From: Cyanobacteria bacterium FACHB-63
GTDB taxonomy: Bacteria; Cyanobacteriota; Cyanobacteriia; Leptolyngbyales; Leptolyngbyaceae
Assembly (NCBI GenBank): GCA_014695255.1
Contig: JACJNX010000060.1
Coordinates: 124,001-188,000, forward strand
Reading direction: 5' to 3'
Length of the DNA: 64,000 nucleotides
Shown: positions 1 through 9,460 of the stretch, in pieces
Numbering within the stretch: position 1 is the first letter of the stretch
Layout of the letters: every line of letters begins with the position of its first letter
The notes under the pieces: model-generated
The model's input: the letters and a program-made list of their open reading frames with translations, nothing else
Databases searched by the model: none
What the model was told of the DNA's origin: nothing
Translations under genes and position numbers: made by a program

Positions 1-2
1 TC

Positions 3-314
3 ACGTTGAATTATGCCTGGATTCGTCCTGTCCAAGCTCCGCTCCGATTTTTCCAAGATTTGCTGGCGTATGACTTTTACGTGGATCGTTTATATCGCGT
101 CAGTGTGGTTCTGATTGTGAACGCGATCGCTCAATTTAGCGCCTGGTGCGATCGTTACATCGTTGATGGAGTGGTCAATTTCGTCGGATTAGCTTCACTC
201 TTTAGCGGTGAGACTTTGAAATATAGCGCTTCGGGACGATCGCAAGCTTATATGTTGACCATTTCGCTTGTGGTTGGCTTGTTAGGCGCATTTCTAACTT
301 GGTCGATGTGGTAA
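3..314 (+). CDS. ndhF4: NAD(P)H-quinone oxidoreductase subunit F, CO2-uptake type (NdhF4), 3' end only
   Basis: The window opens inside this gene; only about the last 103 codons are present, ending at TAA 312-314. The visible tail (FFQDLLAYDFYVDRLYR..., LFSGETLKYSASGRSQAYML) aligns closely with the tail of the complete NdhF at 3818-5716, so it is an antiporter-like membrane subunit of a CO2-uptake NDH-1 complex in the thylakoid membrane. It is followed 20 bp later by ndhD and then by the short form of Cup, the order of the NDH-1MS' (NDH-1_4) operon. The assignment to NdhF4 rather than NdhF3 comes from the CupB partner, not from the fragment itself. Confidence 0.85.
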   Translation, partial: TLNYAWIRPVQAPLRFFQDLLAYDFYVDRLYRVSVVLIVNAIAQFSAWCDRYIVDGVVNFVGLASLFSGETLKYSASGRSQAYMLTISLVVGLLGAFLTWSMW

Positions 315-334
315 CTCTTTCTGAAGAATGACTT

Positions 335-1855
335 ATGTTGAGTGCGTTGATTTGGATACCGATTTTGGGTGCGATCGTGGTTGGACTGTTGCCGGGTTCG
401 ATCTCCGATCAATCTGTGAGAAGGACAGCGATTGCAACCGTTAGCATTGCCTTGGCTGTGTCGCTTTGGATTGCGACTCAGTTTGATGTGATTAATATCG
501 GACTTCAGTTTCAAGAAGATTTGCCCTGGCTAGAACCGCTGGGACTGACTTACCGATTAGGGTTAGACGGTTTATCGCTGCCGCTGATTGTTCTGAATTG
601 CTTTTTAACCCTGATTGCGCTGTTTTCCACGCCTCCAGCCGTTCAACGTCCTCGGCTTTATTACTCGCTGATTCTAGTGATTAATGCTGCCGTTGCTGGA
701 GCATTTCTCGCTCATAACTTATTGTTGTTCTTCTTGTTTTATGAGTTAGAACTTATTCCGCTTTATTTACTGATTGGAATTTGGGGAGGAGCAAAGCGGG
801 GGTATGCTTCGACAAAGTTTCTGATCTACACGGCGGTTTCAGGAATATTAATTCTAATTGCATTTCTAGGTTTAACTTGGTTGAGCGGCGCGACATCCTT
901 TGAATACAACCCAGCATTAACCGAAGCGTTGCCGTTAACATCGCAAATAGTATTGCTGGGCGCAATTCTAATCGGATTTGGCATCAAGATTCCGTTGTTT
1001 CCGCTACACACCTGGTTGCCCGATGCTCACGTTGAAGCTTCCACGCCAATCTCGGTGCTACTTGCAGGGGTATTGTTGAAGCTTGGAACCTATGGACTGT
1101 TGCGGTTTGGATTGCAATTGTTTCCGCAAGCGTGGGCGGTATTGGCTCCTTATCTAGCGATTTGGGCAGTCGTCAGTGTGTTGTTCGGGGCATTTACCGC
1201 GATCGCTCAAACCGATATGAAAAAGATGGTGGCTTACAGTTCAGTCGGGCATATGGGATTTATCCTTCTCGCAGCCGCTGCCGCAACACCGTTAAGTCTA
1301 TTGGGCTGTGTGTTTCAGATGGTGAGCCACGGTTTGATCTCTGCGCTGCTATTTGCCTTGGTCGGTGTGGTCTATACCAAAACAGGAACCCGCGACATTA
1401 CCGTTTTGAAAGGGTTGTTAACCCCGGAGCGGGGCTTGCCGATCGTCGGTAGTTTGATGATTTTGGGTGTGATGGCGAGTGCTGGAATTCCAGGAATGGT
1501 TGGGTTTATTTCGGAGTTTCTGATATTCCGGGGGAGTTTCATCGCATTTCCAGTGCAAACCCTGCTCAGTATGATTGGCACAGGGTTAACTGCGGTTTAC
1601 TTTCTGCTGTTGGTGAATCGCACCTTCTTTGGTCGGCTGCCGGATCAGTTTGCAAATCTGCCACCAGTGTATTGGTCAGAGCGAATTCCTTCTATCATGG
1701 TAGCGGTTTTGATTGTGCTGTTAGGCTTGCAACCCAGTTGGCTGGTGCATTGGACTGAGACGACAACGACTGCAATGTTGAGCGAATATCCAACGATCGC
1801 AGTTCATTCCGCCCCAACTCAATCTCATCCCGTCTCAGTCTTACCGTTGGAGTAA
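335..1855 (+). CDS. ndhD4: NAD(P)H-quinone oxidoreductase subunit 4, CO2-uptake type (NdhD4)
   Basis: This 506-residue polytopic protein is a full-length NdhD/NuoM-type proton-pumping subunit. The conserved antiporter signature around residues 225-255 (LPLHTWLPDAHVEASTPISV) and the following LLKLGTYGLLRF segment are intact. It pairs with NdhF4 and CupB to form the distal arm of NDH-1MS', which couples plastoquinone reduction by ferredoxin to one-way CO2 hydration. It is very similar along its length to NdhD3 at 5765-7282, consistent with an old duplication of the whole three-gene unit. cupB begins 2 bp after its stop, so the genes are one transcript. The D4 label depends on the neighbouring Cup type. 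Confidence 0.9.
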   Translation: MLSALIWIPILGAIVVGLLPGSISDQSVRRTAIATVSIALAVSLWIATQFDVINIGLQFQEDLPWLEPLGLTYRLGLDGLSLPLIVLNCFLTLIALFSTPPAVQRPRLYYSLILVINAAVAGAFLAHNLLLFFLFYELELIPLYLLIGIWGGAKRGYASTKFLIYTAVSGILILIAFLGLTWLSGATSFEYNPALTEALPLTSQIVLLGAILIGFGIKIPLFPLHTWLPDAHVEASTPISVLLAGVLLKLGTYGLLRFGLQLFPQAWAVLAPYLAIWAVVSVLFGAFTAIAQTDMKKMVAYSSVGHMGFILLAAAAATPLSLLGCVFQMVSHGLISALLFALVGVVYTKTGTRDITVLKGLLTPERGLPIVGSLMILGVMASAGIPGMVGFISEFLIFRGSFIAFPVQTLLSMIGTGLTAVYFLLLVNRTFFGRLPDQFANLPPVYWSERIPSIMVAVLIVLLGLQPSWLVHWTETTTTAMLSEYPTIAVHSAPTQSHPVSVLPLE

Positions 1856-1857
1856 CT

Positions 1858-2997
1858 ATGGTTGTCGCACGTTCAAAATCCTCGCATTTGTTAGCCGATA
1901 TTATTGAGCGCGTCGAGTCAGGCGGCGCACTTTTGCCGGAATCCCCCACGAACTTGCTTGAAGTCGTTGGCGTTCTCAAAAGCTATGGCGTTGTTTTAGG
2001 TGCTTACTCTCGCAATCTCAAATTTATTGCTGAGAATCAGTTTTTAGTGTTGTTTCCATTTTTCAAGTATTTCGACGGAGACGTTTCAACGAAGAAACTT
2101 CTAAAGCATTGGTGGCACGATCGAATCAACTACGAATTCTCTGAATACTGCATGAGAGCGATGCTGTGGCATGGTGGCGGTGGCTTAGATCAGTATGTCG
2201 ATAGCCCCGAATTTGTCGATCGTGCTCAACAAGCGATTCAGGCCAAGATTAAAAGTAATTTCTTTATCCGAAATCTGTCGCAAATCTTTCCGAGTTTTCT
2301 GCTGGAACAAGTGCGGATGTCTTGTTACTACAGCGCACTTGGGCAGTTTTGGACTGTGATGAGCGATATGTTTCTTAAATTGTCCGATCGCTATGACAAT
2401 GGTGAAATTAAAACCATTCAAGATGTTGTCAATCATGTCAAAGCGGGATTAGTGGACAATGCAGCCTTGCCGATTACTTATGCGGTGAAGGTTGGCGATC
2501 GTACTTACGAAATTATTCCAGAATCCGCAGGCTTACAGTTTTTGCTGGATACAGCAGTACCTTATGTGGAAGCGGTGTTCTTCAAGTCTTTTCCGTTCAT
2601 GGGAACCGTCTCTTACAATGCTCAAGCGCGACAAATTCCCTTAGAGCAAGAACGATTCTCTTACGGTGCGCTGTATGCAGATCCGTTACCGATTGGCGGC
2701 GGTGGAATTCCACCCACGTTGCTGATGCAAGACATGATGCATTATCTGCCGGAATATCTGCTTGATTTTTACCGTCAATCACTCAGAGGCGAAAGTGATA
2801 TGCGTGTCAAAATCTGTATTAGCTTCCAGAAATCGATGTTCTGCGTGACGACAGCCGCAATTTTGGGATTGGCTCCTCATGCGATCGACACCCAAGATCC
2901 AAAAGAACAGGAGGAAAATCGCAAATACTTGGAAGGCTGGATGGATAAGCTAATAGAGTCACGCCTGATTAGTTTTCAAGCTTGCGACGTTGTATGA
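1858..2997 (+). CDS. cupB: CO2 hydration protein CupB (ChpX), constitutive NDH-1MS' subunit
   Basis: This 379-residue soluble protein belongs to the CO2 hydration (Chp/Cup) family, which has carbonic-anhydrase-like activity when docked on NDH-1. It carries the family signature WHDRIN at residues 86-91, whose His and Arg match the proposed zinc ligands in published NDH-1MS structures, followed by CMRAMLWH. Compared with CupA at 7313 it lacks an insertion of roughly 40 residues before this motif, the length difference that separates CupB from CupA. GGAG sits just before the ATG. Its TGA overlaps the ATG of the next gene (ATGA), indicating translational coupling to the RibK-like protein. Confidence 0.9.
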   Translation: MVVARSKSSHLLADIIERVESGGALLPESPTNLLEVVGVLKSYGVVLGAYSRNLKFIAENQFLVLFPFFKYFDGDVSTKKLLKHWWHDRINYEFSEYCMRAMLWHGGGGLDQYVDSPEFVDRAQQAIQAKIKSNFFIRNLSQIFPSFLLEQVRMSCYYSALGQFWTVMSDMFLKLSDRYDNGEIKTIQDVVNHVKAGLVDNAALPITYAVKVGDRTYEIIPESAGLQFLLDTAVPYVEAVFFKSFPFMGTVSYNAQARQIPLEQERFSYGALYADPLPIGGGGIPPTLLMQDMMHYLPEYLLDFYRQSLRGESDMRVKICISFQKSMFCVTTAAILGLAPHAIDTQDPKEQEENRKYLEGWMDKLIESRLISFQACDVV

Positions 2998-3455
2998 ATC
3001 AACTGAATCAGCAGCTTGACGGCATTATTCAAGCAGGATATGGGGTTGCATCGGGCAGGACAGACAGCAGCCCCTATCCTAAAGGCACGATCGAGATGCA
3101 AACTCCATTTTTCAAGCAGTTAGGACTCGATCTCACCCCGTTTTTTCCGGGTACGCTCAACGTCAATATCAGCCCGAACGAATTTGAATTAATATCGCCT
3201 CTACATACTTTTAGAAATGTGCAATGGGCAGAAGGATTTGATCCGGAGGATTTTTCTTTTACGCCTTGCCAGATTATCTATCAGAACAGAAGCTTCGACA
3301 GCCTGATTTACTATCCGCATCCAGAGACAAAAATTGGGCATTTTCAGAACCCATCGATCGTAGAAGTGATCGCTCCGCTCATCTCCGATTTGAAATATGG
3401 CGATCGCGTAACGCTCAGCGTCAATCCTCAGCAAGTGCGAATTCTTGAGAAATAG
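2994..3455 (+). CDS. RibK-like (CTP-dependent riboflavin kinase fold, DUF120-like) protein coupled to cupB
   Basis: The 153-residue product starts at an ATG that overlaps the cupB stop (ATGA). It matches the layout of archaeal CTP-dependent riboflavin kinase: an N-terminal GYGVASGR loop, FFPGTLNV near residue 50, a middle stretch with PEDFSFTPCQI, and SIVEVIAPLISDLKYGDRVTL near the C-terminus, equivalent to the EIIEIIAP...L..GD end of RibK. Bacteria normally use the unrelated RibF for this step, so kinase activity is not implied; it may bind a nucleotide or flavin, or be structural. Coupling to cupB suggests a role in the CO2-uptake complex. The similarity was recognised from memory of the family and was not computed. 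Confidence 0.7.
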   Translation: MNQLNQQLDGIIQAGYGVASGRTDSSPYPKGTIEMQTPFFKQLGLDLTPFFPGTLNVNISPNEFELISPLHTFRNVQWAEGFDPEDFSFTPCQIIYQNRSFDSLIYYPHPETKIGHFQNPSIVEVIAPLISDLKYGDRVTLSVNPQQVRILEK

Positions 3456-3817
3456 ACTTTTGGTGATGGAATGCGATCGCAATATTAATCGATCAGCCAT
3501 GAATAGTCTCTGTTATCACCATAGGATTTCTCAATTGTTAAGTTAAGTATTGATGATAATTGATTCTGACAATCTCTATCATAGAAATTAGATTATAACT
3601 CCTACGCTGACTGGATTTCAGTGCCTCGTCTAAATGACTTGCTCTGTTCCTTTCAATGCTTAAGTGTGATAAACATTATAGTTACTACAGACTGTTTAAG
3701 AATTTGTGAAATAAGTCTCAGAGCGCTGTTGCGGTGAGTTGGGCACTGCTTGTCTCTGATAGACATTCTCTCATTCATTTGATTTCGATTCAGCTTGCTA
3801 TCTAGAGGTGAATTTCG
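3456..3817. promoter_or_regulatory. Intergenic region upstream of ndhF3, probable NdhR-controlled promoter region
   Basis: These 362 bp separate the constitutive and inducible CO2-uptake units and carry no credible gene. The stretch 3530-3600 is AT-rich. It contains CTAT-C-ATAG (3576-3584) and ATAG-N8-TTAT (3581-3596), one base off the ATAG-N8-CTAT motif proposed for NdhR in Synechocystis. The inducible ndhF3 operon is the classic NdhR target, so this is the natural place for its operator. No -10/-35 pair could be assigned with confidence. Confidence 0.5.
3581..3596 (+). promoter_or_regulatory. Near-match NdhR/CcmR operator (ATAG-N8-TTAT)
   Basis: ATAG at 3581-3584 and TTAT at 3593-3596 are separated by 8 bp, one mismatch from ATAG-N8-CTAT. 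An additional CTAT at 3576-3579 is immediately upstream. The site is about 220 bp before the ndhF3 start. The regulatory role is inferred from the operon it precedes. Confidence 0.4.
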
Positions 3818-5716
3818 ATGGCTCACCCATTGCTTCAAAGCATTTGGTTAATCCCTTGCTACGCTCTTCTTGGAGCTGTCCTTTCTGCGCTTTGGTTTCC
3901 GGGTATTACTCGACGGACTGGCCCACGTCCATCCGGCTACCTGAATGGACTCATGTCTTTGGTCACATTCTTGCATGCTGCGTTTGCGCTGCCTGCAATT
4001 TGGGGTCAGCCTCCCCAAGAGATTTTGATTCCCTGGCTGGATGTTGCAGGGCTGAATCTGACGATTCCGATCCAGATTTCCACCCTCAGCGTGGGTGCGA
4101 TCATTCTCGTGGCTGGAATCAATCTTCTGGCGCAGACCTACGCTTTCGGCTACATGGAAATGGATTGGGGTTGGGCGCGATTCTTCTCGCTGCTCGGCTT
4201 GTTTGAAGCGGGAATGACCGCCCTGGTTCTCTGTAATTCCCTCTTCTTTAGCTACTTCATTCTGGAAATCCTAACGCTTGCCACGTATCTGCTTGTCGGT
4301 ATCTGGTTCAATCAGTCGCTTGTGGTGACAGGTGCGAGAGATGCCTTTCTGACGAAGCGGCTCGGAGACTTGTTCTTGCTGATGGGTGTCGTTGCACTAT
4401 TGCCGCTTGCCGGAACCTGGAATTTCGACGAGCTTGCAGTGTGGGCACAAACCGCTCAGGTCGATCCGAAAGTCATCACCTTAGTGGGTTTAGCGTTGAT
4501 TGCAGGCCCAATGGGTAAGTGCGCTCAATTCCCACTGCACTTGTGGCTTGATGAAGCGATGGAAGGTCCGGTTCCTGCTTCGATTCTGCGGAACTCGGTA
4601 GTCGTCGCAACAGGCGCTTGGGTGCTGTACAAGCTCGAACCCGTTTTAGCGCTATCTCCGACGGTGTTGGCGGTCACTATCTTTATCGGTGCGGTCAGCG
4701 CGATCGGTGGCTCGTTGATTGCGATCGCTCAAATTGATATTAAGCGGACACAATCCTATTTAGTCACCGCCTATATGGGCTTGGTGTTTATCGCGATCGG
4801 AACTCAGCAACCCGAAGCGGCTCTCCTGCTCGTATTGACTCACTCGCTGGCATCTGCATTGCTCATCATGGGCGGTGGCGCAGTCGTCTGGAACAGCATC
4901 ACCCAGGATGTTACTCAACTCGGTGGCTTGTGGTCGCGTCGTCCGGTTTCAGGCTTTAGTTTCTTGATTGGTTTAGCTGGATTGGTCGCGCTTCCTCCGT
5001 TTGGTGGATTCTGGGCGGCTCTAGAAATCGCACAAGGCGTTTGGGAAACTCAGCCCTGGATTGTTGGAATTATTTTGCTGGTGAATGCGTTTGCAGCATT
5101 TGGCATCACACGAGTCTTCTGCTTACTCTTTCTGGGCGAAGCAAAGCAAATGGCTCAACGATCGCCCGAAATCCACTATTGGATGGCACTGCCGATGATC
5201 GTGATGATGGGCTTCGTGCTGCACCTGCCGTTAATTCTGCAATCCTTGAATCTCTTACCGAGTTGGGCAGGCATCAATACCGACGTTGCACTCTTGCTGA
5301 TCTGGTCAACGATTACAGGCATTGCTTTAAGCGCGATTGTCTACACCAACAACAACATTGCAAAACCCGTGGTTCTGCCCTGGAAAGGACTGCAAGACCT
5401 GTTGGCGTATGACTTCTACACGCAGAATCTGTATCGCAGCAGCATCGTCTTTATCGTTGCGCTCGTTTCTCAAATCACATCCTGGTTCGATCGATATCTC
5501 GTGGACGGAGGACTGAATCTCTTTGGTGTTCTCACTCTGTTTAGCGGTCGGAACTTGCGCTACAGCACCTCTGGTCAATCGCAGTTTTATATGCTGACGA
5601 TCGTATTCGGAATCGCCTTGATCAGTGTATTGCTGAGTTTGCCATTCCTCTCGCACGTCACGGTTTCGCTTTTCCCGCAGAACGCCACCGAAATTGTGAT
5701 GAATGTTCAGCGTTAA
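3818..5716 (+). CDS. ndhF3: NAD(P)H-quinone oxidoreductase subunit F, CO2-uptake type (NdhF3)
   Basis: This 632-residue membrane protein is a complete NdhF/NuoL-like antiporter subunit. It shows the conserved core (GPMGKCAQFPLHLWLDEAMEGPVPAS, residues about 230-255), a long series of hydrophobic helices, and the amphipathic C-terminal region with DLLAYDFYTQNLYR that is also seen in the ndhF fragment at the window start. It heads the inducible operon ndhF3-ndhD3-cupA, whose products form NDH-1MS (NDH-1_3), the high-affinity low-CO2-induced CO2-uptake complex of the thylakoid. The start was chosen at ATG 3818. It is likely repressed by NdhR under high carbon. Confidence 0.92.
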   Translation: MAHPLLQSIWLIPCYALLGAVLSALWFPGITRRTGPRPSGYLNGLMSLVTFLHAAFALPAIWGQPPQEILIPWLDVAGLNLTIPIQISTLSVGAIILVAGINLLAQTYAFGYMEMDWGWARFFSLLGLFEAGMTALVLCNSLFFSYFILEILTLATYLLVGIWFNQSLVVTGARDAFLTKRLGDLFLLMGVVALLPLAGTWNFDELAVWAQTAQVDPKVITLVGLALIAGPMGKCAQFPLHLWLDEAMEGPVPASILRNSVVVATGAWVLYKLEPVLALSPTVLAVTIFIGAVSAIGGSLIAIAQIDIKRTQSYLVTAYMGLVFIAIGTQQPEAALLLVLTHSLASALLIMGGGAVVWNSITQDVTQLGGLWSRRPVSGFSFLIGLAGLVALPPFGGFWAALEIAQGVWETQPWIVGIILLVNAFAAFGITRVFCLLFLGEAKQMAQRSPEIHYWMALPMIVMMGFVLHLPLILQSLNLLPSWAGINTDVALLLIWSTITGIALSAIVYTNNNIAKPVVLPWKGLQDLLAYDFYTQNLYRSSIVFIVALVSQITSWFDRYLVDGGLNLFGVLTLFSGRNLRYSTSGQSQFYMLTIVFGIALISVLLSLPFLSHVTVSLFPQNATEIVMNVQR

Positions 5717-5764
5717 GCGCCATTTCAATTCTCTCTAGATTCTCAAGCCAAAGGAAAGTGTTCT

Positions 5765-7282
5765 ATGCTGAGTCCGTTGATTTGGCTACCGCTGATTGGT
5801 GCGTTAGTCATTGGATTAATTCCTAAACTGTCTGCAAAGCAAGCAAAATTAAGTGCGATCGCGGTTTCCGGTGCCGTTCTAGTTTGGACGATCGTGCTGA
5901 TGCTCAACTTCGATTTGAGCCAGCCCGGAATGCAAATGCAGGAGTATCACACCTGGATTCCAACTCTGGGAATTAGTTACAGCTTGGCGATCGATGGATT
6001 ATCCCTACCGCTCATAGCGTTGGGCAGTTTGATTACGATCGTGGTAGCTTCCAACAGCGAAGTTGGATTGAAACCTGGAGCAACCTTACAGCGTCCGCAA
6101 CTGTTCTACTCACTGCTGCTGATTGTGTATTCAGGGGTAGCGGGTGCGTTTCTGGCGCAAAACTTGCTGTTATTCTTCTTATTCTATGAAGTCGAACTCG
6201 TTCCGTTCTATCTGCTGATTCTGATTTGGGGCGGACAGAAGCGCGAATATGCTGCGATGAAGTTCCTGATTTACACAGCGATTTCAGGCATCCTGATTTT
6301 GGCAGCGTTCCTCGGTGTCGCTTGGTTAGGTCATTCTGCAAGCTTTGATTACAGCGACATCAACACAGCGGTTCTGCCTCAAAAAGCTCAGTTGATTTTG
6401 TTGACCCTTTTACTGATTGGCTTTGGGATCAAAACTCCGCTGGTTCCACTGCATACTTGGTTGCCTGATGCTTATGTTGAGGCTTCGACTCCGGTTGCTA
6501 TCCTGCTAGGTGGAATCTTAGCGAAGCTTGGAACCTATGGGTTAGTCCGGTTTGCGCTCGGAATGTTCCCGGAAACGTGGAAGTTGATTTCACCCGGACT
6601 TTCCATTATTGCAGCCGTTTCAATTCTCTACGGTGCATTCTCGGCGCTGGCACAGCATGACATTAAGCGGATGGTGGCATTTAGCTCGATCGCTCACATG
6701 GGCTATGTATTGCTCGGAGCGGCAGCGCTAACACCGCTGGCAATGGTCGGTGCAGTATCGCAAATGATTGCACACGGTTTGATTCTGGCGTTGCTGTTCT
6801 ACCTCGTGGGCTTGGTCGAATCGAAGACGGGAACCCGCGATCGCGACATTCTCAACGGGTTACTCAATCCCATTCGAGGATTACCGCTCACGAGTGCATT
6901 GCTGATTCTTGCTGCAATGGCGAGTGCTGGCATTCCTGGACTCGCTGGATTTGTGGCTGAGTTTCTCGTCTTCCAAGGCAGCTTCTCGACCTTCCCCGTT
7001 CAGACCTTAGTTGCAATTCTAGGTACGGGCTTAACGGCAGTGTATTTCGTGATTCTGCTAAACCGTACTTGCTTCGGTAAGCTCGACAACAAGACGGCTT
7101 ACTTCCCCAGAGTCAAGTTCACTGAATACGTGCCTGCACTCGTTCTAACCGCATTAATCTTCTGGCTCGGTGTTCAACCGATGTGGCTGGTGCGCTGGAG
7201 TGAGCAAACTACGAAAGCACTGGTGACAGCCGCAGTCCCCCAGGTTGAACAAGTTGCGTTTAATTCTGTCGATCGCCCTTAA
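5765..7282 (+). CDS. ndhD3: NAD(P)H-quinone oxidoreductase subunit 4, CO2-uptake type (NdhD3)
   Basis: This 505-residue NdhD/NuoM-type proton-pumping subunit has the family signature VPLHTWLPDAYVEASTPVAI near residues 230-250 and KLGTYGLVRF just after. It works with NdhF3 and CupA in the inducible NDH-1MS complex. The gene lies 48 bp after ndhF3 and 30 bp before cupA, in the standard operon order. It is a paralogue of NdhD4 at 335-1855. Confidence 0.92.
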   Translation: MLSPLIWLPLIGALVIGLIPKLSAKQAKLSAIAVSGAVLVWTIVLMLNFDLSQPGMQMQEYHTWIPTLGISYSLAIDGLSLPLIALGSLITIVVASNSEVGLKPGATLQRPQLFYSLLLIVYSGVAGAFLAQNLLLFFLFYEVELVPFYLLILIWGGQKREYAAMKFLIYTAISGILILAAFLGVAWLGHSASFDYSDINTAVLPQKAQLILLTLLLIGFGIKTPLVPLHTWLPDAYVEASTPVAILLGGILAKLGTYGLVRFALGMFPETWKLISPGLSIIAAVSILYGAFSALAQHDIKRMVAFSSIAHMGYVLLGAAALTPLAMVGAVSQMIAHGLILALLFYLVGLVESKTGTRDRDILNGLLNPIRGLPLTSALLILAAMASAGIPGLAGFVAEFLVFQGSFSTFPVQTLVAILGTGLTAVYFVILLNRTCFGKLDNKTAYFPRVKFTEYVPALVLTALIFWLGVQPMWLVRWSEQTTKALVTAAVPQVEQVAFNSVDRP

Positions 7283-7312
7283 GTTCGTTGCCAACCCAGG
7301 AGAGAATTCGCT

Positions 7313-8617
7313 ATGAACATGCCCGCTCCCACCAAGACCAAGCTTCCTCCCTCACAGCACCCGTTTGCGGAAGTAATTCATCGCCTCGAAGCAGGCGGCG
7401 CAATGCTTCCCGACACACCCGAAAATCTGATGCAGATTATCGGACTGTACAAAGCATATGCAGTGCCGATGGACTTCTACTGGCGCGATTTGCTCTACAT
7501 TGGCGAGCAAGTGTTTCTCAATCCGCTGCCCGTCTTCAAGTATTTCATCTCGGATGAGTACATGAAGCGCCACAATCACTATGCAGGCGACGATGCAGAT
7601 TTGCGAATTTGGCGCGGCACCGCAGAAGCCCATCCAGAACTGATTGAGTTCATGGAAAAAGGCGAACTGAACAAGAAGTTACCCCGCGCCTTGCATCACC
7701 TCTGGCACGATCGCATCAACATGGAGTTCGCAGAAGAATGTATGCGAGCAATGCTGTGGCACCGGGGAATGTATGTTCCAGTGAATCAGTTCGATCCGTA
7801 CCTCGATAGCGATGAGTACAAGGCAAACGCCGATCGAGCGATCAAGGCATACTTCCGCAAGAATCCGGTGATGGCAGGCTTATACAAGCTGTTCCCCGAT
7901 ATGTTCTTAGAGCAGTGCCGTCAAGCTTCCTATTATGCGAATCTCGGATTGTTCTGGGAAGTGATGGCTCCGGTGTTCTTCGAGATGTCGGACTTGTACG
8001 ATGAAGGCAAAATCGCGACGGTTCCACAAGCGATGGACTTCTTGGTGAATGGAATCTTCGCGATCGCAGGTCGCCCGATCTATCACCACGTTTACATCGA
8101 TGGTGAATGCTACGAAATCATTCCCAAATCGAAAGGATTTACCTGGCTGTACGAAGCAGCTTTACCTTACGTGGAAGCCGTGTTTTACAGAACGTCTCCG
8201 TTCCGGGGTACGAAGTCTTATAACGCTCAAGCAGGACAAGTTCCATCTGATCAGAAAGACTTCCATTATGGCGTTCTGTATGCAGATAAATTTCCGGTTG
8301 GAACCGCTGGAATTCCGCCGACATTCTTGGCTCAAGATATGCTGCATTTCTTGCCGCCTTACTTGGTGGAATACTATAAGCAGCATTGTCGAGGCGAAGA
8401 CGATATGCTGGTGCAGCTTGCTGTTAGTTTCCAGAGATCGATGTACTGCGTCACCTCTGCGGTCATTCAAGCGTTGCGAGCTGCATTGTTGTATCCGCTC
8501 GATGACACCAATCCAAATCACCTGATGGCAAATCGACGCTTCTTTGAATCGCAGCTCGATCGTTTCTTGCGTCCTGAATCGCGAATTCGCGAAATTCAGA
8601 GCCAAGATTATCGGTAA
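7313..8617 (+). CDS. cupA: CO2 hydration protein CupA (ChpY), inducible NDH-1MS subunit
   Basis: This 434-residue Cup/Chp family protein is the CO2-hydrating subunit of the inducible NDH-1MS complex. The WHDRIN signature falls at residues 131-136, followed by CMRAMLWH as in CupB. A segment of about 40 residues before it (around positions 83-125, with a TAEAHPELIEF stretch) is absent from CupB, which identifies this copy as CupA. AGGAGAG lies 9 bp before ATG 7313. It is the last gene of ndhF3-ndhD3-cupA and is followed by two hairpins and a convergent cupS-like gene. Confidence 0.92.
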   Translation: MNMPAPTKTKLPPSQHPFAEVIHRLEAGGAMLPDTPENLMQIIGLYKAYAVPMDFYWRDLLYIGEQVFLNPLPVFKYFISDEYMKRHNHYAGDDADLRIWRGTAEAHPELIEFMEKGELNKKLPRALHHLWHDRINMEFAEECMRAMLWHRGMYVPVNQFDPYLDSDEYKANADRAIKAYFRKNPVMAGLYKLFPDMFLEQCRQASYYANLGLFWEVMAPVFFEMSDLYDEGKIATVPQAMDFLVNGIFAIAGRPIYHHVYIDGECYEIIPKSKGFTWLYEAALPYVEAVFYRTSPFRGTKSYNAQAGQVPSDQKDFHYGVLYADKFPVGTAGIPPTFLAQDMLHFLPPYLVEYYKQHCRGEDDMLVQLAVSFQRSMYCVTSAVIQALRAALLYPLDDTNPNHLMANRRFFESQLDRFLRPESRIREIQSQDYR

Positions 8618-8625
8618 TCTAAGAA

Positions 8626-8658
8626 TTTGCGGTTCGTTATTTCTAAACGAACCGCAAA
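8626..8658 (+). terminator. Perfect 13-bp hairpin after cupA
   Basis: TTTGCGGTTCGTT (8626-8638) pairs perfectly with AACGAACCGCAAA (8646-8658) across a 7-nt loop, 9 bp after the cupA stop. There is no T-tract on the plus strand, so it could act as an mRNA 3'-end stabiliser or a factor-dependent terminator rather than a classical intrinsic terminator. Confidence 0.6.
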
Positions 8659-8670
8659 TCCAGCAGACAC

Positions 8671-8700
8671 ACAAAAAACGATCGCGGTTCCACGATCGTT
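8671..8700 (-). terminator. Intrinsic terminator of the cupS-like gene
   Basis: AACGATCG (8677-8684) and CGATCGTT (8693-8700) form an 8-bp stem. Read on the minus strand the stem is followed by a run of six T, just after the cupS-like stop. This is a standard rho-independent terminator in a convergent gap. Confidence 0.7.
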
Positions 8701-8718
8701 CTCTCATTCATCTGATTC

Positions 8719-9120
8719 TTATCCCATCAAAATTACGGTATCAATCACATGAATGACACCATTATCTGCTTCGATGTCAGCCGCTAGAACCGTTGCATTC
8801 TTTACCTCAAATCCATCCTCGAAGTGAAACGGAATGGGTGATCCTTCAAGCGAAGTCACGGAGCCTAATTTCTCCAAGTCCGCTTTCATGTACTTCCCTG
8901 AAGCGACGTGAAACGTCAAGATTCGGGTCAGTTGCGGAATGTTTTGGACAAGCGTTTGAATCGTTCCGGGTGGAAGCTTTGCAAAGGCATCGTCATTCGG
9001 TGCAAATACGGTAAAAGGTCCTGGACTCTTAAGCGCATCCACCAAGTTTGCCGCCTTTACTGCGGTTACAAGGGTGTTAAATGAGCCAGCGCCAACTGCA
9101 ATATCAACAATATCTGCCAT
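8719..9120 (-). CDS. cupS: Fasciclin-domain protein, probable CupS
   Basis: This 133-residue single fasciclin (FAS1) domain protein starts at MADIVDIAV and has no signal peptide. The FAS1 H1 motif ([15 protein letters not shown], about residues 36-50) and H2-like end ([12 protein letters not shown]) are present. CupS, the fasciclin subunit of NDH-1MS, is also a leaderless single FAS1 domain and is normally co-directional after cupA. Here the gene faces cupA tail to tail and lies between cupA and ndhR. A stand-alone cytosolic fasciclin protein is the alternative; position next to cupA favours CupS. It is separated from ndhR by a 434-bp divergent intergenic region. Confidence 0.7.
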
Positions 9121-9460
9121 AGTGCGATCGAGGATAAAGGGTAACGGAAAGAGCGTGACAGAACTTTTAACTGTAGTCACCCACTGAACTTTACAATGAG
9201 AAGGCTCGTTTTGGTTGTTAAAGTTCTGTTGCGTTTCGCCAGTGTGAGAAAGCGTTCGATCTATGATCCGCAAGCCATAAGAAAAGCGTTACACGCGATA
9301 GACCTGAAGGGGTAGAGCTACAAACTGCGACAGAGTACAGCGAACTCACTCCAACAAAATTCTGATTCGTGTAACGCCAAATTGGAAGGGAGCATATGCT
9401 CTTGTGTATTATCATAACTACAAAAGCTATAAGGAAAAATCGCTGTTCTCTATAAGTTTC

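Follow-up and report, generated by a model that had tools for sequence, protein, structure and literature searches.

RibK, the CTP-dependent riboflavin kinase that forms the vitamin-B2 cofactor FMN, is known from archaea. Both MJ0056 and the Thermoplasma acidophilum protein RbkR are cited in the sections of PMC8305020 that we draw on, where MJ0056 is described as the enzyme-only form of RibK. A second described system bears on position rather than fold: for the cyanobacterium Leptolyngbya boryana CZ1, the excerpted text of PMC10536570 (2023) places the NDH-1 3 and NDH-1 4 CO2-uptake clusters close together, gives this tandem layout as new for the species and lists a hypothetical-protein gene, Q2T42_08970, that overlaps cupB by 8 bp. 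Our literature search found no description of a RibK-like protein in cyanobacteria among the matches listed. Here we analyse such a gene in Cyanobacteria bacterium FACHB-63, where it overlaps cupB near the start of a 64,000-nucleotide stretch of DNA (the window). The RibK-like family is real and scattered in cyanobacteria; its position behind cupB is an event of one lineage and carries no sign of membership of the CO2 pump.

A gene overlapping cupB

The gene lies last in an ndhF4-ndhD4-cupB cluster, with the following features.

1–314, + strand: 3′ end of an ndhF gene, probably ndhF4 from synteny, cut by the start of the window
335–1855, + strand: ndhD4-type NDH-1 subunit M gene (NCBIfam NF005060, above cut-off)
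1858–2997, + strand: cupB (ChpXY family), the upstream overlapping gene (Pfam PF10216, E 2.6e-189)
2994–3455, + strand: RibK-like protein gene, 153 amino acids plus stop (MJ0056 fold match; sub-cut-off match to Pfam DUF120)
2994–2997, + strand: ATGA, overlap of the RibK-like start codon and the cupB stop codon, read from the sequence
8719–9273, strand opposite to the RibK-like gene: CupS-like fasciclin gene

A gap of 362 bases follows the RibK-like gene on its 3′ side, and then come ndhF3 (3818), ndhD3 (5765) and cupA (7313), so that positions 1–9273 hold the ndhD4-cupB and ndhF3-ndhD3-cupA clusters in tandem, as do two of the related loci (L002 and L003). The syntenic ndhF gene of loci L002–L004 and L006 shares about 50% identity with NdhF3.

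The ATG of the RibK-like gene (2994–2996) and the TGA of cupB (2995–2997) interlock as an earlier note on this DNA had claimed, and the four motifs that it had named all lie in the protein (GYGVASG, residues 15–21; PGTLNV, 52–57; SIVEVIAPL, 121–129; YGD, 135–137). An in-frame TTG at 2982, upstream of this ATG, is not the preferred start. Counted with ATG as the start, the overlap with cupB recurs in 8/8 genomes of the window's genus, by 1, 4, 8 or 17 nt, the 8-nt form being found in four of them. Translational coupling to cupB is predicted from these overlapping codons. Counts of promoter-like and terminator-like sites between 2800 and 3900 are near chance (4 versus 2.3 in shuffles and 2 versus 1.0, respectively).

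Because the protein is kept in the seven other genomes of the genus, 68–93% identical over the aligned part, the reading frame is not there by chance. Among the nine intact cupB-linked copies described below, dN/dS could be computed for 31 of the 36 pairs and gives values of 0.066–0.197, which are rough because many dS values exceed 1. The gene is real and under purifying selection.

A diverged RibK fold

Family profiles detect the relationship to RibK at scores below their curated cut-offs. The Pfam family DUF120/CTP-dep_RFKase (PF01982) matches the protein with E 2.8e-4 and 21.3 bits against a cut-off of 25, and NCBIfam NF010762 scores 20.1 against a cut-off of 279. In alignment A1, a set of 29 relatives that served as input for AlphaFold and for profile comparison, 15 members match DUF120 at E ≤ 1, the best at 3.3e-5.

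The AlphaFold model built from A1 (mean pLDDT 88.5, pTM 0.85) has five Foldseek matches in the PDB with E ≤ 0.001, every one of them MJ0056. Alignment of the model by VIA-align to MJ0056 (2vbv_A) covers 127 residues with Z 14.0, an rmsd of 2.4 and 20% identity; RbkR follows with Z 11.5 (5trd_B) and 7.7 (3cta), and the best entry that is no riboflavin kinase reaches Z 6.8. Comparison of A1 by hhalign with MJ0056 plus the Thermoplasma enzyme gives E 1.2e-5 and a probability of 80.9. MJ0056 is reached by fold and by profile–profile comparison only: a PDB sequence search with the single protein returned one meaningless antibody match (E 0.49) and did not reach RibK, and the A1 profile matched none of the PDB chains. 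The resemblance to RibK that the earlier note had read from motifs is thus borne out over the whole domain, and common ancestry with RibK is well supported. Because DUF120 scores remain sub-cut-off and the CTP loops differ even though the G-T-x-N motif and a C-terminal Glu are kept, the protein is a member of a diverged RibK-fold family and not RibK proper.

The residues that carry this distinction, with conservation counted over 61 aligned relatives, are as follows.

3036–3056, + strand: GYGVASG loop, residues 15–21, in place of the MJ0056 GLGEGRY loop
3150–3161, + strand: GTLN, residues 53–56, aligned by hhalign with MJ0056 GTLN 42–45
3309–3332, + strand: YYPHPETK family signature, residues 106–113
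3363–3365, + strand: Glu124, aligned with MJ0056 Glu107

On the side shared with RibK, T54 and N56 of GTLN are present in 61/61 rows and G53 in 59/61. We take the G-T-x-N of RibK to be its Mg/phosphate site, Thr43 and Asn45 of MJ0056 presumably binding Mg. Glu124, found in 60/61 rows, is the Glu of an IVEVIAP strand that corresponds to IIEIIAP in MJ0056, and Pro108 (YYP) aligns by hhalign with MJ0056 Pro96 (VVP). By eye, Thr112 may match MJ0056 Thr99, a pair that hhalign does not align.

On the CTP side the protein departs from RibK. The GxGEGRY and LRE loops, common to MJ0056 and the Thermoplasma enzyme, are both absent: GLGEGRY has become GYGVASG, without E17, G18 and R19 of MJ0056, and the stretch L114-R115-E116 of MJ0056 falls in a gap of the alignment. 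Kinase activity could have been lost or changed, since these residues are not kept. The replacement loop is itself conserved (G15, A19, S20 and G21 in 61/61 rows, V18 in 58/61). Examination of the conserved RibK residues gives a divided result, in which G-T-x-N and the C-terminal Glu are nearly invariant but the CTP loops differ.

New relative to MJ0056 are the YYPHPETK and EDFSF signatures. In the former, Y106, P108, T112 and K113 are invariant, H109, P110 and E111 are present in 60 rows and Y107 in 55; W78, E85, F87 and F89 are further residues found in 61/61. This family-specific invariant set is absent from MJ0056 and from the Thermoplasma enzyme.

Distribution and genomic neighbours

A scan of the genome_contigs collection gave 30 loci, most of them in cyanobacteria, with others in Shewanella surugensis and a Tatlockia metagenome-assembled genome (MAG). 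In an even draw of cyanobacteria the gene was matched in 48 of 386 genomes, three of them with an internal stop, and in the phylum of Shewanella in 2 of 299, S. surugensis itself among them. The Tatlockia contig (L011) has the QueF-side neighbours seen in Chlorogloea and Aliterella and is probably a cyanobacterial contig wrongly binned. Elsewhere, 44 stretches of viral_contigs matched the search pattern and none was confirmed as a relative, and the phage collection gave no match. Five plasmid records matched: one, from Pseudanabaena, carries a full copy, and four Synechocystis records carry the same short remnant. On pSYSM (L063, about 4938–5171) this remnant is unannotated and consists of N-terminal and C-terminal pieces in two frames.

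Decay recurs across the family. Decayed or truncated copies are found in genome G185, on pSYSM and at loci L030 and L031, and stop-containing matches in genomes G183 and G268. At L031 (7995–9884) a truncated, fused copy consists of the family's first 59 residues continued by a von Willebrand A protein. Another locus, L009, has a second, partial C-terminal copy (9055–9237) after an intact gene.

The earlier note was right that bacteria use RibF, and the RibK-like gene does not contradict this, as the window's genome has RibF too, and so have 44/44 other holders tested, all of them without an internal stop in the RibK-like gene. Replacement of RibF by the RibK-like protein is ruled out by the same counts.

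No constant partner gene was found, the sets of neighbours varying by lineage. A Rieske-domain gene lies on one side and ScpB on the other in Crocosphaera and relatives; QueF and GST adjoin the gene in Chlorogloea, Aliterella and one further genome (G308), Cupin_5 in Pleurocapsales, and TerC and DUF6464 in family f19; the remaining contexts are single cases. Among the neighbour genes scanned there is no sign of a flavin pathway. In S. surugensis (L029, 8435–9706) the RibK-like gene shares its end with an overlapping gene for a FAD-dependent oxidoreductase (DAO). A fusion protein, cpYpsA/SLOG domain first and RibK-like domain second, occurs in two genomes of a single genus (L067, 7451–8368, and L068, genome G193), which fits a nucleotide-handling enzyme. 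The number is small: cpYpsA was matched in 9 of the 386 genomes, six over cut-off, and the two that also have the RibK-like gene have it fused.

Candidate activities

Of the readings considered, we hold as moderately probable that this is a bacterial enzyme of diverged RibK fold, standing alone and accessory in role: a Mg-dependent kinase acting on a small molecule, probably a flavin, whose gene came to lie behind cupB once and is co-translated with it. Several features suggest this. First, retention of G-T-x-N and of the Glu points to a protein that binds Mg-nucleotide and transfers phosphate: Thr54 and Asn56 would still bind Mg-nucleotide, and phosphate would pass to a small acceptor. Second, the RibK fold suggests an acceptor of flavin type, with riboflavin itself or a flavin relative the likeliest. 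Third, because the CTP loop has been rewritten from GLGEGRY to GYGVASG, the preferred donor may differ from the CTP of RibK. Fourth, an accessory role is suggested by scattered distribution, changing neighbours and repeated decay.

The strongest competitor is a kinase with a non-flavin substrate, in which the WxxxxxxE(x)FSF and YYPHPETK residues form a new acceptor site. The large invariant set missing from MJ0056 and the Thermoplasma enzyme argues for it, as do the variable neighbours with no flavin pathway sign among those scanned; against this, in the solved structures found the fold is peculiar to flavin kinases, and both Glu124 and Pro108 have aligned counterparts in MJ0056. We regard it as rather unlikely.

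A true second riboflavin kinase, still using CTP and making FMN beside RibF, would account for the match (Z 14.0) to MJ0056 with CDP and FMN bound and for the kept G-T-x-N and Glu. It sits poorly with the absent GxGEGRY and LRE residues on the CTP side, with scores under the family cut-offs and with the RibF already found in all tested holders, and we consider it unlikely.

Less probable again is a catalytically dead sensor of nucleotides or flavins, a reading to which the changed CTP loop and the cpYpsA/SLOG fusion in one genus would lend themselves. In such a protein one would not look for T54 and N56 in every row and E124 in all but one, and the RibK-matching positions are the last to change.

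We also put forward, more tentatively, a general picture that may hold for the family: RibK-fold kinases with a donor loop (GxxVASG) and an acceptor signature (YYPHPETK) of their own. Their substrate would be a flavin or another metabolite whose phosphorylation is not yet known from RibF-bearing bacteria, and in one cyanobacterial lineage their synthesis would keep pace with that of the constitutive CO2-uptake complex.

Position behind cupB

The earlier note had proposed that the protein is a repurposed accessory of the CO2-uptake complex NDH-1MS′, and had treated absence of linkage to cupB in other cyanobacteria as counting against this. ChpXY, the family of cupA and cupB, was matched in 42/42 genomes of the window's family, of which the best 30 cupB loci were compared. 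An intact RibK-like copy lies behind cupB at nine of the 30, namely in 8/8 genomes of the window's genus and in one of a sister genus (G289). A second genome of that sister genus (G185) carries a remnant with an early stop behind an intact cupB, at a contig end. The other 20 loci have no RibK-like gene in the available downstream DNA, which at one of them is only 166 bases.

In the genome_contigs scan 4 of the 30 loci have cupB next door, and among the 44 other holders a ChpXY gene lies within 20 kb only in G289. Gene and ChpXY share a contig in 26/44, at least 119 kb apart, and lie on different contigs in 16/44, where closeness across contig ends is possible; as far as the contigs allow, the two are unlinked in 43/44. 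One genome alone (G276, 99% complete) has the RibK-like gene with no ChpXY match. Conservation beside cupB, for which the note had called, thus holds throughout the window's genus and for one intact copy in the sister genus; beyond these two related genera the gene is, as far as the contigs allow, unlinked to cupB.

Two loci lie near other CO2-uptake genes. In Nodosilinea (L014, 8001–16435) the RibK-like gene is 2.3 kb from a cupS-cupA-ndhD3-ndhF3 cluster, on the other strand. In G116 a CupS-like fasciclin gene is 4.4 kb away, and the locus was not counted as linked because there is no cupA, cupB or ndh match in the 19.9 kb examined.

In the tree the nine linked copies fall on one side of a branch with support 96/94, recovered in 98% of 200 bootstrap trees. 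The gene thus settled behind cupB a single time and has remained there. Residues invariant among unlinked copies are kept in the linked ones, so no repurposing shows.

A role in NDH-1MS′ is accordingly not supported by linkage, presence and absence, the tree or decay. As an accessory or regulatory subunit that binds a nucleotide or flavin through its RibK fold and was recruited to CO2 uptake, the protein would fit the cupB overlap across its genus, the intact adjacent copy in the sister genus, the strong purifying selection among linked copies and the Nodosilinea locus near the other CO2-uptake cluster, but homologues that in other lineages lie at a great distance from ChpXY, a holder with no ChpXY match, 20 same-family cupB loci with no such gene in their available downstream DNA, the remnant behind an intact cupB in G185 and the unaltered family-invariant residues make this quite improbable. 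It keeps what weight it has because linkage in the genus is stable and the Nodosilinea gene lies near a cupA cluster; that every sampled genome of the genus keeps it may not be due to chance alone.

For the preferred accessory kinase, we would picture one insertion in the window's lineage that put the gene at the end of the ndhF4-ndhD4-cupB cluster; through the overlap it would share the transcript and ribosomes of cupB. The protein would then be made together with NDH-1MS′ yet be no part of it. The case cautions that operon position alone is no proof of membership of a CO2-uptake complex. It also raises the question of what purpose a second kinase serves, given a diverged, stand-alone RibK relative found across cyanobacteria next to RibF.

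Comparison with known systems

Four described systems frame this family. With RibK MJ0056 (PF01982/DUF120; PDB 2vbv, 2oyn, 2vbu, 2vbs and 2p3m) the RibK-like protein shares its whole-domain fold; it differs in being bacterial, in having RibF alongside and in scoring under the curated cut-offs. RbkR of T. acidophilum (PDB 5trd and 3cta), a riboflavin kinase and regulator, has a kinase domain of like fold, but its winged-helix DNA-binding domain is absent from the 153-residue protein. RibF (PF01687) is a separate gene in the same genome with unrelated family profiles, and fold matches to the Thermotoga FAD synthetase are weak (Z 5.0–5.8); its activity, the phosphorylation of riboflavin, is nonetheless the one that we judge likeliest for the RibK-like protein. 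Finally, Q2T42_08970 of L. boryana, for which the excerpted text of PMC10536570 gives neither fold nor function, is by its position beside cupB a putative member of the RibK-like family, and its 8-bp overlap has the length seen in four genomes of the window's genus; a gene previously only hypothetical there would now have a fold and testable residues assigned to it.
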